DNA of 64,000 bases from Hirudinaria manillensis (Eukaryota; Annelida; Clitellata; Hirudinida; Hirudinidae): positions 7,921,001 through 7,985,000 of the forward strand of contig CM067536.1 of NCBI GenBank assembly GCA_034509925.1, written 5' to 3'. Each line of letters opens with the position of its first letter. The stretch's first letter is position 1. The notes below the pieces were generated by a model. It was not told the origin of the DNA and did no database searches. It saw nothing but the letters and a program-made list of their open reading frames with translations. The translations under genes were made by a program, and so were the position numbers. Positions 2,085 to 10,860 of the stretch are shown one piece after another.

Positions 2085-2191
2085 TACGATTCAGAATCTT
2101 TTAATGGCAAAGTCGAACGTTTGGTTCTGAGGAATTTATACAAACAAACATAACATCTTTCTTATCACAAGACAATTGCCAACAAAATAAA

Positions 2192-3208
2192 ATGACCGAG
2201 CACGAGAATTGTATCTTTGAGAAGCTGCAATCGTCGAATTGTCGGACGTCATCAACTTCATCCGAAGGCCTAGATGGCAGGTTTGAAAATGTGATGAAGT
2301 ATCTTCTTGAAAAGAAAGCAAACGAGAAGAAGAATAAATTTTCCTTAAACGAATGGAATAAAAGGTACCTGGAAAATCTCGAATCAAATAAGGCAACTGC
2401 CCGTAAAACGACCTCGAAAAATCAGGAAACCCTTGCCCCAAAGAAGTGTTACCTGGAGATTTCTATGCCTCAAGGATGGAGGAACACGTATACCCAAGGA
2501 AACGAAAACGATACAATCGAGGAACTTTTGGATGAAATTCAGAAAGAAACTAGACGTAGGATTAGCAGCAAATGTTATCATTTATATGATGCAAAGACAG
2601 ACACTTATTATGACGAAAAATATTTCAAATCCACATTGGTCTCTTTAGGCTTGTCACATTATGGACGTCTTACTATGGTGTCGAAACCCGATGATTCACT
2701 CAAATGTTCGATTGAAATCCGTCTACCGGGTGGCCATAAATTGACCATGTACATGAACTATTCCAAAACGATTTCAGATCTTTGGTATGACATTCACAAA
2801 ATGACTCGCAAATATTCTTATCGGGAGTATCGTCTGTACAATGTAAAGAAAAATATATATTACGACAAAGATTATTTCCGTCTCTCCTTGAACTCTTTGG
2901 GCTTGTCACCGTACGGTCTTCTCGAAGTTGTGCCTAAAGAGTCTTGTAGAAGTATGAGCTCTCTTGTAATCTCTTTGCGTGGAGCACGTACGATTCAGAT
3001 ATCCTTACACCACGAAGAGAAAATTTCAAGACTTTGGGAGGTCATTGAAAGTAAAGATGGCATTATATCTAGTCGGGACTATCGTTTATACGATGCGAAG
3101 AAGTGCCAATATTACGACGGAAAATATTTGGACTCGTCCTTGGTTTCTTTAGGCATGTCACCTTATGGACGTCTTACAGCAGTAAAGAATATCGAAGAAA
3201 GTGCTTAA
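2192..3208 (+). CDS. Triple UBX/ubiquitin-like repeat protein, array copy 1
   Basis: Single-exon ORF of 338 codons. The first ~80 residues are charged and Ser/Lys-rich, with no signal peptide or membrane segment, so the protein is probably intracellular. Three internal repeats of about 80 residues follow, at roughly 86-163, 171-248 and 256-332. Each begins with a hydrophobic strand (LEISMPQG, IEIRLPGGHKL, LVISLRGAR), has a central amphipathic helix, and ends with YxLYdaK...YYDxkYf, then SLxSLGxSpYGxLxxV. The order strand, strand, helix, Y-x-L strand and a final LGL-x3-G-x-L segment resembles UBX and related beta-grasp ubiquitin-like domains. That is a fold-level guess; I do not recognise the family and assign no function. 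This copy has Val at 318, shared only with copy 2. The start is the first ATG after a leader common to all copies. Confidence 0.8.
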   Translation: MTEHENCIFEKLQSSNCRTSSTSSEGLDGRFENVMKYLLEKKANEKKNKFSLNEWNKRYLENLESNKATARKTTSKNQETLAPKKCYLEISMPQGWRNTYTQGNENDTIEELLDEIQKETRRRISSKCYHLYDAKTDTYYDEKYFKSTLVSLGLSHYGRLTMVSKPDDSLKCSIEIRLPGGHKLTMYMNYSKTISDLWYDIHKMTRKYSYREYRLYNVKKNIYYDKDYFRLSLNSLGLSPYGLLEVVPKESCRSMSSLVISLRGARTIQISLHHEEKISRLWEVIESKDGIISSRDYRLYDAKKCQYYDGKYLDSSLVSLGMSPYGRLTAVKNIEESA

Positions 3209-3687
3209 CATTTTTAGGAATTTTTTGTGAAGAATGATCACTAAAAGATGGGCTTTAATTAACTAATTAACTTGACAAGTTTATAATAAATTATTTATAA
3301 ATCAAACACGATTGTTGAAATTTAAAAATGAATTATTACGTAACTGTCTAATTCTTTAACTGTGTGGCATGTTTTGCCACTACCGATAGACTTTCGTTAA
3401 AGCATCGATTTCTTAATTAATTTTTCTTTCCTTAGCAGGATGTAAATGTGAATGTAGCACATATTTTTCACTTATTAAATAAAATGTCACAATAACGATT
3501 ATTATTTAATAAATGTACAATAAAATCCTCTTAATGCAATCAGTAAAATTCTCTTAAATAATAAGAAAATGTGTAATTCCTACGATTCAGAATCTTTTAA
3601 TGGCAAAGTCGAACGTTTGGTTCTGAGGAATTTATACAAACAAACATAACATCTTTCTTATCACAAGACAATTGCCAACAAAATAAA

Positions 3688-4704
3688 ATGACCGAGCACG
3701 AGAATTGTATCTTTGAGAAGCTGCAATCGTCGAATTGTCGGACGTCATCAACTTCATCCGAAGGCCTAGATGGCAGGTTTGAAAATGTGATGAAGTATCT
3801 TCTTGAAAAGAAAGCAAACGAGAAGAAGAATAAATTTTCCTTAAACGAATGGAATAAAAGGTACCTGGAAAATCTCGAATCAAATAAGGCAACTGCCCGT
3901 AAAACGACCTCGAAAAATCAGGAAACCCTTGCCCCAAAGAAGTGTTACCTGGAGATTTCTATGCCTCAAGGATGGAGGAACACGTATACCCAAGGAAACG
4001 AAAACGATACAATCGAGGAACTTTTGGATGAAATTCAGAAAGAAACTAGACGTAGGATTAGCAGCAAATGTTATCATTTATATGATGCAAAGACAGACAC
4101 TTATTATGACGAAAAATATTTCAAATCCACATTGGTCTCTTTAGGCTTGTCACATTATGGACGTCTTACTATGGTGTCGAAACCCGATGATTCACTCAAA
4201 TGTTCGATTGAAATCCGTCTACCGGGTGGCCATAAATTGACCATGTACATGAACTATTCCAAAACGATTTCAGATCTTTGGTATGACATTCACAAAATGA
4301 CTCGCAAATATTCTTATCGGGAGTATCGTCTGTACAATGTAAAGAAAAATATATATTACGACAAAGATTATTTCCGTCTCTCCTTGAACTCTTTGGGCTT
4401 GTCACCGTACGGTCTTCTCGAAGTTGTGCCTAAAGAGTCTTGTAGAAGTATGAGCTCTCTTGTAATCTCTTTGCGTGGAGCACGTACGATTCAGATATCC
4501 TTACACCACGAAGAGAAAATTTCAAGACTTTGGGAGGTCATTGAAAGTAAAGATGGCATTATATCTAGTCGGGACTATCGTTTATACGATGCGAAGAAGT
4601 GCCAATATTACGACGGAAAATATTTGGACTCGTCCTTGGTTTCTTTAGGCATGTCACCTTATGGACGTCTTACAGCAGTAAAGAATATCGAAGAAAGTGC
4701 TTAA
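3688..4704 (+). CDS. Triple UBX/ubiquitin-like repeat protein, array copy 2
   Basis: Protein identical to copy 1, including Val 318. The nucleotide differences I noticed are in the flanks: one extra T in the run just after the stop (near 4715), and CTCTTAAATA rather than TTGATTAAATA upstream of the leader (around 3550). The spacer to copy 3 has the short-type 3' flank. Confidence 0.8.
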   Translation: MTEHENCIFEKLQSSNCRTSSTSSEGLDGRFENVMKYLLEKKANEKKNKFSLNEWNKRYLENLESNKATARKTTSKNQETLAPKKCYLEISMPQGWRNTYTQGNENDTIEELLDEIQKETRRRISSKCYHLYDAKTDTYYDEKYFKSTLVSLGLSHYGRLTMVSKPDDSLKCSIEIRLPGGHKLTMYMNYSKTISDLWYDIHKMTRKYSYREYRLYNVKKNIYYDKDYFRLSLNSLGLSPYGLLEVVPKESCRSMSSLVISLRGARTIQISLHHEEKISRLWEVIESKDGIISSRDYRLYDAKKCQYYDGKYLDSSLVSLGMSPYGRLTAVKNIEESA

Positions 4705-9206: not shown

Positions 9207-9685
9207 CATTTTTAGGAATTTTTTGTGAAGAATGATCACTAAAAGATGGGCTTTAATTAACTAATTAACTTGACAAGTTTATAATAAATTATTTATAAAT
9301 CAAACACGATTGTTGAAATTTAAAAATGAATTATTACGTAACTGTCTAATTCTTTAACTGTGTGGCATGTTTTGCCACTACCGATAGACTTTCGTTAAAG
9401 CATCGATTTCTTAATTAATTTTTCTTTCCTTAGCAGGATGTAAATGTGAATGTAGCACATATTTTTCACTTATTAAATAAAATGTCACAATAACGATTAT
9501 TATTTAATAAATGTACAATAAAATCCTCTTAATGCAATCAGTAAAATTTGATTAAATAATAAGAAAATGTGTAATTCCTACGATTCAGAATCTTTTAATG
9601 GCAAAGTCGAACGTTTGGTTCTGAGGAATTTATACAAACAAACATAACATCTTTCTTATCACAAGACAATTGCCAACAAAATAAA

Positions 9686-10702
9686 ATGACCGAGCACGAG
9701 AATTGTATCTTTGAGAAGCTGCAATCGTCGAATTGTCGGACGTCATCAACTTCATCCGAAGGCCTAGATGGCAGGTTTGAAAATGTGATGAAGTATCTTC
9801 TTGAAAAGAAAGCAAACGAGAAGAAGAATAAATTTTCCTTAAACGAATGGAATAAAAGGTACCTGGAAAATCTCGAATCAAATAAGGCAACTGCCCGTAA
9901 AACGACCTCGAAAAATCAGGAAACCCTTGCCCCAAAGAAGTGTTACCTGGAGATTTCTATGCCTCAAGGATGGAGGAACACGTATACCCAAGGAAACGAA
10001 AACGATACAATCGAGGAACTTTTGGATGAAATTCAGAAAGAAACTAGACGTAGGATTAGCAGCAAATGTTATCATTTATATGATGCAAAGACAGACACTT
10101 ATTATGACGAAAAATATTTCAAATCCACATTGGTCTCTTTAGGCTTGTCACATTATGGACGTCTTACTATGGTGTCGAAACCCGATGATTCACTCAAATG
10201 TTCGATTGAAATCCGTCTACCGGGTGGCCATAAATTGACCATGTACATGAACTATTCCAAAACGATTTCAGATCTTTGGTATGACATTCACAAAATGACT
10301 CGCAAATATTCTTATCGGGAGTATCGTCTGTACAATGTAAAGAAAAATATATATTACGACAAAGATTATTTCCGTCTCTCCTTGAACTCTTTGGGCTTGT
10401 CACCGTACGGTCTTCTCGAAGTTGTGCCTAAAGAGTCTTGTAGAAGTATGAGTTCTCTTGTAATCTCTTTGCGTGGAGCACGTACGATTCAGATATCCTT
10501 ACACCACGAAGAGAAAATTTCAAGACTTTGGGAGGTCATTGAAAGTAAAGATGGCATTATATCTAGTCGGGACTATCGTTTATACGATGCGAAGAAGTGC
10601 CAATATTACGACGGAAAATATTTGGACTCGTCCTTGATTTCTTTAGGCATGTCACCTTATGGACGTCTTACAGCAGTAAAGAATATCGAAGAAAGTGCTT
10701 AA
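9686..10702 (+). CDS. Triple UBX/ubiquitin-like repeat protein, array copy 6 (last)
   Basis: Protein identical to copies 3 and 5. Immediately after the stop codon the flank departs from the others: about 50 new bases (10704-10750), then a diverged version of the usual flank with the longer GCTTTACT form seen in copy 4. Homology to the unit fades by about 10860, which marks the right edge of the array. Confidence 0.8.
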   Translation: MTEHENCIFEKLQSSNCRTSSTSSEGLDGRFENVMKYLLEKKANEKKNKFSLNEWNKRYLENLESNKATARKTTSKNQETLAPKKCYLEISMPQGWRNTYTQGNENDTIEELLDEIQKETRRRISSKCYHLYDAKTDTYYDEKYFKSTLVSLGLSHYGRLTMVSKPDDSLKCSIEIRLPGGHKLTMYMNYSKTISDLWYDIHKMTRKYSYREYRLYNVKKNIYYDKDYFRLSLNSLGLSPYGLLEVVPKESCRSMSSLVISLRGARTIQISLHHEEKISRLWEVIESKDGIISSRDYRLYDAKKCQYYDGKYLDSSLISLGMSPYGRLTAVKNIEESA

Positions 10703-10860
10703 AATTTTAAGTAATTTTGAAGCTAGCCTGCATCAAATTTAACAAAAGTCTTTTTTGTGAAGAATGATCACTGAAAGATGGGCCTTAATTAATTGATTAT
10801 AATACGTGCTTTACTCGACAACTTTATAATAAATTATTTATTAGTTAACAAAGATTGTTA

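Follow-up and report, generated by a model that had tools for sequence, protein, structure and literature searches.

Tandem poly-UBX genes of the leech Hirudinaria manillensis share an upstream element with other intronless genes

We analysed a 64,000-nucleotide stretch of the Hirudinaria manillensis genome (the window, C11:7921001-7985000; 148.43 Mb in 23 contigs were searched) in order to understand six almost identical genes that lie head to tail near its start, each encoding three ubiquitin-like repeats and each preceded by the same short DNA element. The genes belong to a poly-UBX family, which is well supported, as is the association of the element with open reading frames (ORFs) across the genome. 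The account that we favour, and hold tentatively, is that of a UBX-derived, dosage-amplified adaptor family within an intronless, probably germline gene set that is defined by the element. A first-pass annotation of the array, made from the sequence alone, had described the genes themselves and missed the wider family, the loss of a p97-contact signature, and the element common to other intronless genes.

The six ORFs are intron-free, lie on the plus strand, and encode 338 aa each, with start-to-start distances of 1496, 1497, 1496, 1509, and 1496 nt (Table 1). A whole-genome search places all six copies on contig C11. Their coding sequences (CDS) differ pairwise by 0-7 nt and 0-4 aa, and the five inter-copy stretches are 96-100% identical, that of copy 4 being the outlier (96-97%); copy 4 diverges from the others in gene and spacer alike. 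Identity falls to ~62% after copy 6, and the array therefore ends there. ORFs, CDS comparison, and a repeat profile seeded with the three repeats of copy 1 and three of a relative thus bear out the earlier description of six almost identical tandem genes with three ~80-residue repeats and near-identical spacers. Each copy also contains an antisense ORF of 101 aa, which we take as a mechanical by-product. The CDS identity of copies 1 and 2, and of copies 5 and 6, could point to an assembly artefact with a true copy number below six, but the other copies, the spacers, and the spacings differ from one another, and the HiFi reads of the published HiFi/Hi-C assembly of this species average 18.73 kb, twice the length of the ~9-kb array, according to the available part of that report (PMC10671345). 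We consider such an artefact highly improbable, and the single genomic copy that the first-pass annotation had thought long reads might reveal has not appeared as far as checked.

The annotation had also proposed a UBX-like beta-grasp fold. The predicted structure does show ubiquitin-like beta-grasp domains, and this part of the proposal stands. The fold by itself cannot tell UBX from ubiquitin; the best Foldseek matches are to linear polyubiquitin, and ISG15 and the tandem domains of OASL are also among the matches. The UBX assignment comes from the relatives described below, seven of eight of which pass the Pfam UBX cut-off when scanned, the exception being a 175-aa single-domain protein. 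The window copy itself stays under the cut-off (17.6 versus 21 bits), which counts against the assignment, and we use the label UBX-derived because the window copy falls short where its relatives pass. A profile check of one repeat, as suggested earlier, gave only weak matches in a direct Pfam scan of single repeats. None of the nine proteins scanned has a UBA, UAS, SEP, or PUB domain listed by Pfam. Two PDB sequence searches were set aside: with the whole protein the matches are weak and mostly to NEDD8 (best E 0.53), and with the domain profile they are to polyubiquitin (4 bits per unit, summed over many units), talin, and, weakly, a UBX chain (E 0.67), which we do not count as evidence.

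One earlier statement needs correction. The proteins are not three such domains and nothing else, as they carry a conserved N-terminal region of ~86 residues and have relatives with 1, 2, 3, and 6 UBX domains. Two tandem UBX domains are already described in the UNE-I region of vertebrate IARS1 (PMC9643514). By that description the likeness lies in the tandem UBX arrangement; the IARS1 domains are two in number, fused to a tRNA synthetase, and form a protein-binding groove, with p97 unmentioned in the available text (PMC9643514).

Relatives in the same genome fall into a short and a long clade. Short-clade proteins begin with MTE and contain one, two, or three domains. The one-domain type (175 aa) forms an 8-copy array at C11:6.87-6.88 Mb with five copies intact, the two-domain type includes three copies on C7 and a gene of 278 aa that precedes the window array by 6 kb, and the three-domain type is the window array. 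Long-clade proteins, all on C11, contain 2, 2, 3, 3, and 6 domains in 257, 333, 402, 468, and 775 aa. A W-N-K-x-Y-L segment in the tail of the 333-aa protein resembles W-N-K-R-Y-L in the N-terminal region of the window proteins, a hint that the short clade may have arisen from a long-clade gene by fusion or truncation. The family would have grown, probably, by internal domain duplication together with tandem gene amplification. On two diverged pairs the ratio of nonsynonymous to synonymous substitution rates (dN/dS) is 0.39 and 0.47, values that suggest constraint at the sequence level. Literature searches on leech poly-UBX proteins returned no paper among the matches listed. Uninterrupted UBX-bearing frames of 195-198 aa also occur at C2:14031078-14031671 and C7:5454942-5457039; those on C7 are in tandem, while C2 has two opposite-strand matches, the second at C2:14045063-14045227. 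We take these frames to be FAF1-like.

UBX domains bind the p97 N domain via an R...FPR loop, as stated in the accessible part of the source (PMC5389986). We scored the [FY]PR columns of this signature and left the leading R unscored. At these columns the three window domains have KTD, KKN, and KKC, and none of them has (F/Y)PR. The same is true of all 8 distinct short-clade domains, versus 7 of 16 long-clade domains that have (F/Y)PR; in the six-domain protein it is found in domains 3 and 4 only. Judged by these residues, classical p97 docking has probably been lost in the window protein, while long-clade relatives that partly keep the loop probably still dock on p97. An alternative built on this retained signature is that the proteins, the six-UBX relative foremost, are multivalent p97 regulators that occupy several of the six p97 N domains and dose p97 activity, with the window copies weaker or interfering. 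Six UBX domains within one 775-aa chain, and (F/Y)PR, part of the loop by which UBX domains contact p97, in 7 of 16 long-clade domains, would suit this idea. We nevertheless regard it as unlikely, given that the signature is missing from every window and short-clade domain and that the six-domain protein keeps it in two domains only. In the account we favour, the window proteins would most likely serve the ubiquitin/p97 branch as a multivalent scaffold or adaptor, making contacts by their conserved N-terminal region and by the beta-grasp faces left to them. The leech family differs from FAF1, UBXD7, UBXD1, and p47 in that the leech types mostly have 2-6 UBX domains (one in the 175-aa type) and that the window domains have no FPR loop.

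The element ATTCAGAATCTTTTA lies 103 nt ahead of the ATG in every window gene. Using copy 1 in a blastn search of the genome, we found a block of ~300 bases that is 69-73% conserved in short-clade relatives and comprises ~107 bases before the ATG and the first ~200 of the gene. An alignment revealed the arrangement ATTCAGAATCTTTT...AAGTCGA. Each window copy has one mismatch to ATTCAGAATCTTTTG, a match that none of 300 mononucleotide shuffles per copy equals, and the C7 copies, the 278-aa gene, and the 402-aa gene have two mismatches. In the 468-aa gene a one-mismatch motif lies just 21 nt before the first ATG, so that translation may begin at a later one. A heat-shock element and a pol III A-box, both considered by eye for the upstream sequence, were dropped as misfits in spacing or conserved bases. 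Within the window, the sole match outside the array at up to 2 mismatches is ATTCATAATCTTTTA at 55064 (-), with no long ORF after it.

Genome-wide, ATTCAKAATCTTTTG has 52 exact occurrences and its reversed pattern has none; a tolerance of one mismatch to the G form raises the counts to 581 versus 17. We read 36 of the 52 exact sites in their flanks and scored 35 (24 of the G form and 11 of the T form), the other 16 lying nearly all in runs of close sites. A site was called genic if an ATG 60-200 nt past the motif opened a frame of >=100 aa within 500 nt. By this definition 18 of the 24 G sites precede an ORF, compared with background rates of 124 in 2784 positions (4.5%) for window 12001-64000 and 194 in 3434 (5.6%) for the whole window. 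The binomial probabilities are 5e-20 and 3e-18, respectively; leaving out a CPSF2 pseudogene and the second of the CPSF2 loci gives 2e-19 (17 of 22 sites). All are approximate, since a single window supplied the background. At 21 sites the distance from element to ATG is 91-194 nt (median 118), and the sequence is often AT-rich before the element and more balanced after it. The fairly constant distance and this shift in composition would suit a start-site element, and we infer that it acts as a promoter. A TCGA block is present 15-36 nt after the motif start at 10 of 21 genic versus 1 of 13 non-genic sites, a post hoc count (the block was noticed in the window first) that excludes one of two near-identical CPSF2 sites; TCGA occurs in 225 of 2559 25-base stretches of the window. 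Four exact sites form a run with 1641-1690-base spacing, the first preceding a gene for a ubiquitin-conjugating enzyme. Another run, of seven motif sites, covers ~53 kb up to C4:10734722, beginning with locus L082 (C4:10682010-10683010), where the protein downstream has no Pfam match and its frame is still open after the 285 aa read. No paper pairing the motif letters with leeches was found, in a query dominated by the word "leech".

The genes downstream of the element are open and without introns over the 0.56-1.9 kb read. Pfam and PDB matches name SF3A3, CPSF2 (E 3.7e-95 to a PDB chain of that name), RPB7, an mRNA cap N7 methyltransferase, a ubiquitin-conjugating enzyme, a MIF4G protein, RRM proteins, a DnaJ protein, and a poly(A)-polymerase-like protein, and likewise two CCCH proteins (one also CCHC and CPSF4-like), a CCHC protein, and a kinase. 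From a look at the sequences we take some of these to be UBE2Z, eIF4B, CWF19L2, DNAJC17, and tristetraprolin. Six scored genes (L082, L085, L088, L091, L094, and L100) have no Pfam match. Outside the scored set, an intronless INTS6-like gene of 852 aa lies ~7 kb upstream of the window (C11:7911222-7913777) with a T-form element 214 nt from its ATG. Tandem amplification recurs among these genes: intronless CPSF2 has five copies at 2547-base spacing (C1:9372523-9383559), identical over the 283 aa compared, with a sixth of 99% identity at C1:9126552-9127400, and the cap methyltransferase is an intronless tandem pair (C2:13153163-13155742). We searched for intron-bearing parents of three genes, CPSF2, RPB7, and the cap methyltransferase. 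Diverged counterparts with introns exist for CPSF2 (on C9) and RPB7 (on C1); for the poly-UBX genes no parent was identified. A giant-virus origin, prompted by the cap methyltransferase, RPB7, and the poly(A)-polymerase-like protein, was set aside in view of CPSF2, SF3A3, and INTS6, none of which is known from such viruses. A viral-contig scan with the window protein, a method that reaches close relatives only, confirmed none.

Some motif sites lie in sequences resembling long terminal repeats (LTRs). At locus L068, an LTR-like sequence with 14 of 15 motif bases (the same 15 as in the window genes) and an AAGTCG block precedes a gag-like frame that includes a zinc knuckle, labelled by eye, and L084 is a related LTR-like sequence with the exact 15-mer and without the AAGTCG block. 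Many of the one-mismatch sites among the matches listed are paired ~5.3 kb apart, as LTR pairs would be, and a gypsy-like element, also labelled by eye, splits the 8-copy single-UBX array at C11:6873191-6877102. From such evidence one could argue that the genes are retrotransposon by-products, an LTR-derived promoter having been copied along with them and the arrays being neutral amplifications of little function. When gene upstream regions are compared with the two LTR-like sequences by blastn (E <= 0.001), however, similarity is confined to AT-rich sequence and/or the motif and extends at most ~13 bases beyond it, the frames are open with dN/dS values indicative of constraint, and the element sits at comparable distances from the ATG in different genes. 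On these alignments the gene promoters may have come from LTRs, and we judge the by-product scenario as a whole to be rather improbable.

Our preferred account is instead that the element, ~100 nt before the ATG, would work as a start-site element common to intronless genes, many of them for mRNA synthesis and processing, and to LTR-like sequences. The germline is where retrogene paralogues and retrotransposons are often active. Because the element is common to intronless mRNA-machinery genes and LTR-like sequences, and by parallel with mammalian testis retrogenes and Rep8, the germline would be the most likely setting, testis likelier than ovary. Germline expression, adaptor function, and a role in dosage, which the six copies may raise, are what we infer for the window genes. 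More tentatively still, they could be the ubiquitin-system arm of a parallel germline programme, in which dozens of intronless, often tandem genes would supply a second set of factors for mRNA synthesis, splicing, capping, cleavage/polyadenylation, and translation under a bipartite element (ATTCAGAATCTTTTG plus a TCGA block ~20 nt downstream) also used by a retrotransposon family.

Among mammalian testis retrogenes, RBMXL2 is reportedly an intronless mRNA-processing example. The leech genes would resemble this group (Cstf2t, Papolb, RBMXL2, and Ubl4b) in that genes of general mRNA function or of ubiquitin-like type occur as intronless copies, and differ from it in sharing one DNA element and in being often tandemly amplified. 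In the sections available, Cstf2t is described as an intronless retro-copy that serves male germ cells, with Papolb among the intronless genes listed (PMC3482194), and Ubl4b as a testis-specific ubiquitin-like retrogene that is dispensable in mice (PMC8267814). Likewise, Rep8/UBXD6 is a p97-binding UBX protein found almost exclusively in gonads, in spermatids and the somatic granulosa cells of the ovary; it is transmembrane and binds p97 by its UBX domain, and the available text describes no tandem UBX (PMC3174242). Three- and six-UBX chains widen the known uses of this domain, and a family in which some members have lost the p97 loop and others have not is a natural experiment on UBX roles apart from p97. 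The shared element is a DNA signature marking a regulon-like intronless gene set in an annelid, one that would let leech gonad RNA-seq reveal whether the set is a germline programme; if so, it would be a case beyond mammals and flies of mRNA-machinery retro-paralogues used together.

Several results weigh against this account. Among T-form sites only 3 of 11 precede an ORF (Fisher P 0.011 for the difference from the G form), and 6 of the 24 G sites fail (L080, L084, L089, L090, L096, and L102), of which L080 is the CPSF2 pseudogene, L084 is LTR-like, and L096 is the kinase ORF, whose ATG at 212 nt puts it outside the count. Within the family, the motif is weak, with 4 mismatches each, in the one-domain array, where 18-36 of 300 shuffles do as well, and in the 333-aa gene, where 13 do. 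The 257-aa and 775-aa genes show no match above the shuffle level (130 and 165 of 300). The model of the six-UBX protein is of low confidence (predicted local distance difference test score, pLDDT, 49.6). The apparent RNA-processing emphasis is drawn from gene names, several of them assigned from the look of the sequences. A genome search found no copy of the cap methyltransferase beyond the intronless pair, so the pair is apparently its sole source and the set may not be purely germline. Finally, as Ubl4b is dispensable, germline expression would not prove need.

Table 1 Features of the window (positions in the 64,000-nucleotide stretch).
Feature	Position	Strand	Remarks
Element ATTCAGAATCTTTTA, copy 1	2089..2103	+	103 nt from ATG; second block AAGTCGA at 2110-2116
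Element ATTCAGAATCTTTTA, copy 2	3585..3599	+	
Element ATTCAGAATCTTTTA, copy 3	5082..5096	+	
Element ATTCAGAATCTTTTA, copy 4	6578..6592	+	
Element ATTCAGAATCTTTTA, copy 5	8087..8101	+	
Element ATTCAGAATCTTTTA, copy 6	9583..9597	+	
Poly-UBX copy 1	2192..3208	+	338 aa, single ORF, stop included; CDS same as copy 2
Poly-UBX copy 2	3688..4704	+	ORF
Poly-UBX copy 3	5185..6201	+	ORF; 1 aa away from copy 1
Poly-UBX copy 4	6681..7697	+	ORF; most divergent, 7 nt / 4 aa versus copy 1
Poly-UBX copy 5	8190..9206	+	ORF
Poly-UBX copy 6	9686..10702	+	ORF; CDS same as copy 5
Copy 1 N-terminal region, residues 1-86	2192..2449	+	Conserved in 1- and 2-domain relatives; mostly pLDDT <50
Copy 1 UBX-derived domain 1, residues 87-166	2450..2689	+	Profile; predicted fold, pLDDT ~61-79
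Copy 1 UBX-derived domain 2, residues 173-250	2708..2941	+	
Copy 1 UBX-derived domain 3, residues 257-334	2960..3193	+	
LRR-like ORFs	33444-34826, 37269-38681, 40530-41885	-, -, +	One Pfam-checked (LRR), rest by similarity
Transmembrane/TIR-like ORFs	32209-32958, 35989-36750, 42975-43991	-, -, +	One Pfam-checked (TIR), rest by similarity

A cluster of Toll-like receptor (TLR)-like ORFs occupies window positions 32209-43991, ~21-33 kb downstream of the array. Together with the fold matches to linear polyubiquitin, ISG15, and the tandem OASL domains, this neighbourhood could suggest an effector of innate immunity or stress that is inducible and has the tandem ubiquitin-like build of ISG15, OASL, or linear polyubiquitin. 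By the predicted models, tandem beta-grasp units would be common to both, but the six leech proteins end in IEESA or IEEST without a C-terminal diglycine, and their sequence relatives score as UBX. No known immune gene is among the genes named at motif sites, immune genes not having been searched for the motif, and the other motif match of the window, at 55064, is not near the TLR-like ORFs and precedes no long ORF. We therefore think an immune effector quite unlikely. Elsewhere in the window, the ORF at 28969-29487 has a weak match, below the cut-off, to universal stress protein. In the genome at large, one short hirudin match passes the cut-off, with a stop within its span, and antistasin domains are abundant, with 63 matches.

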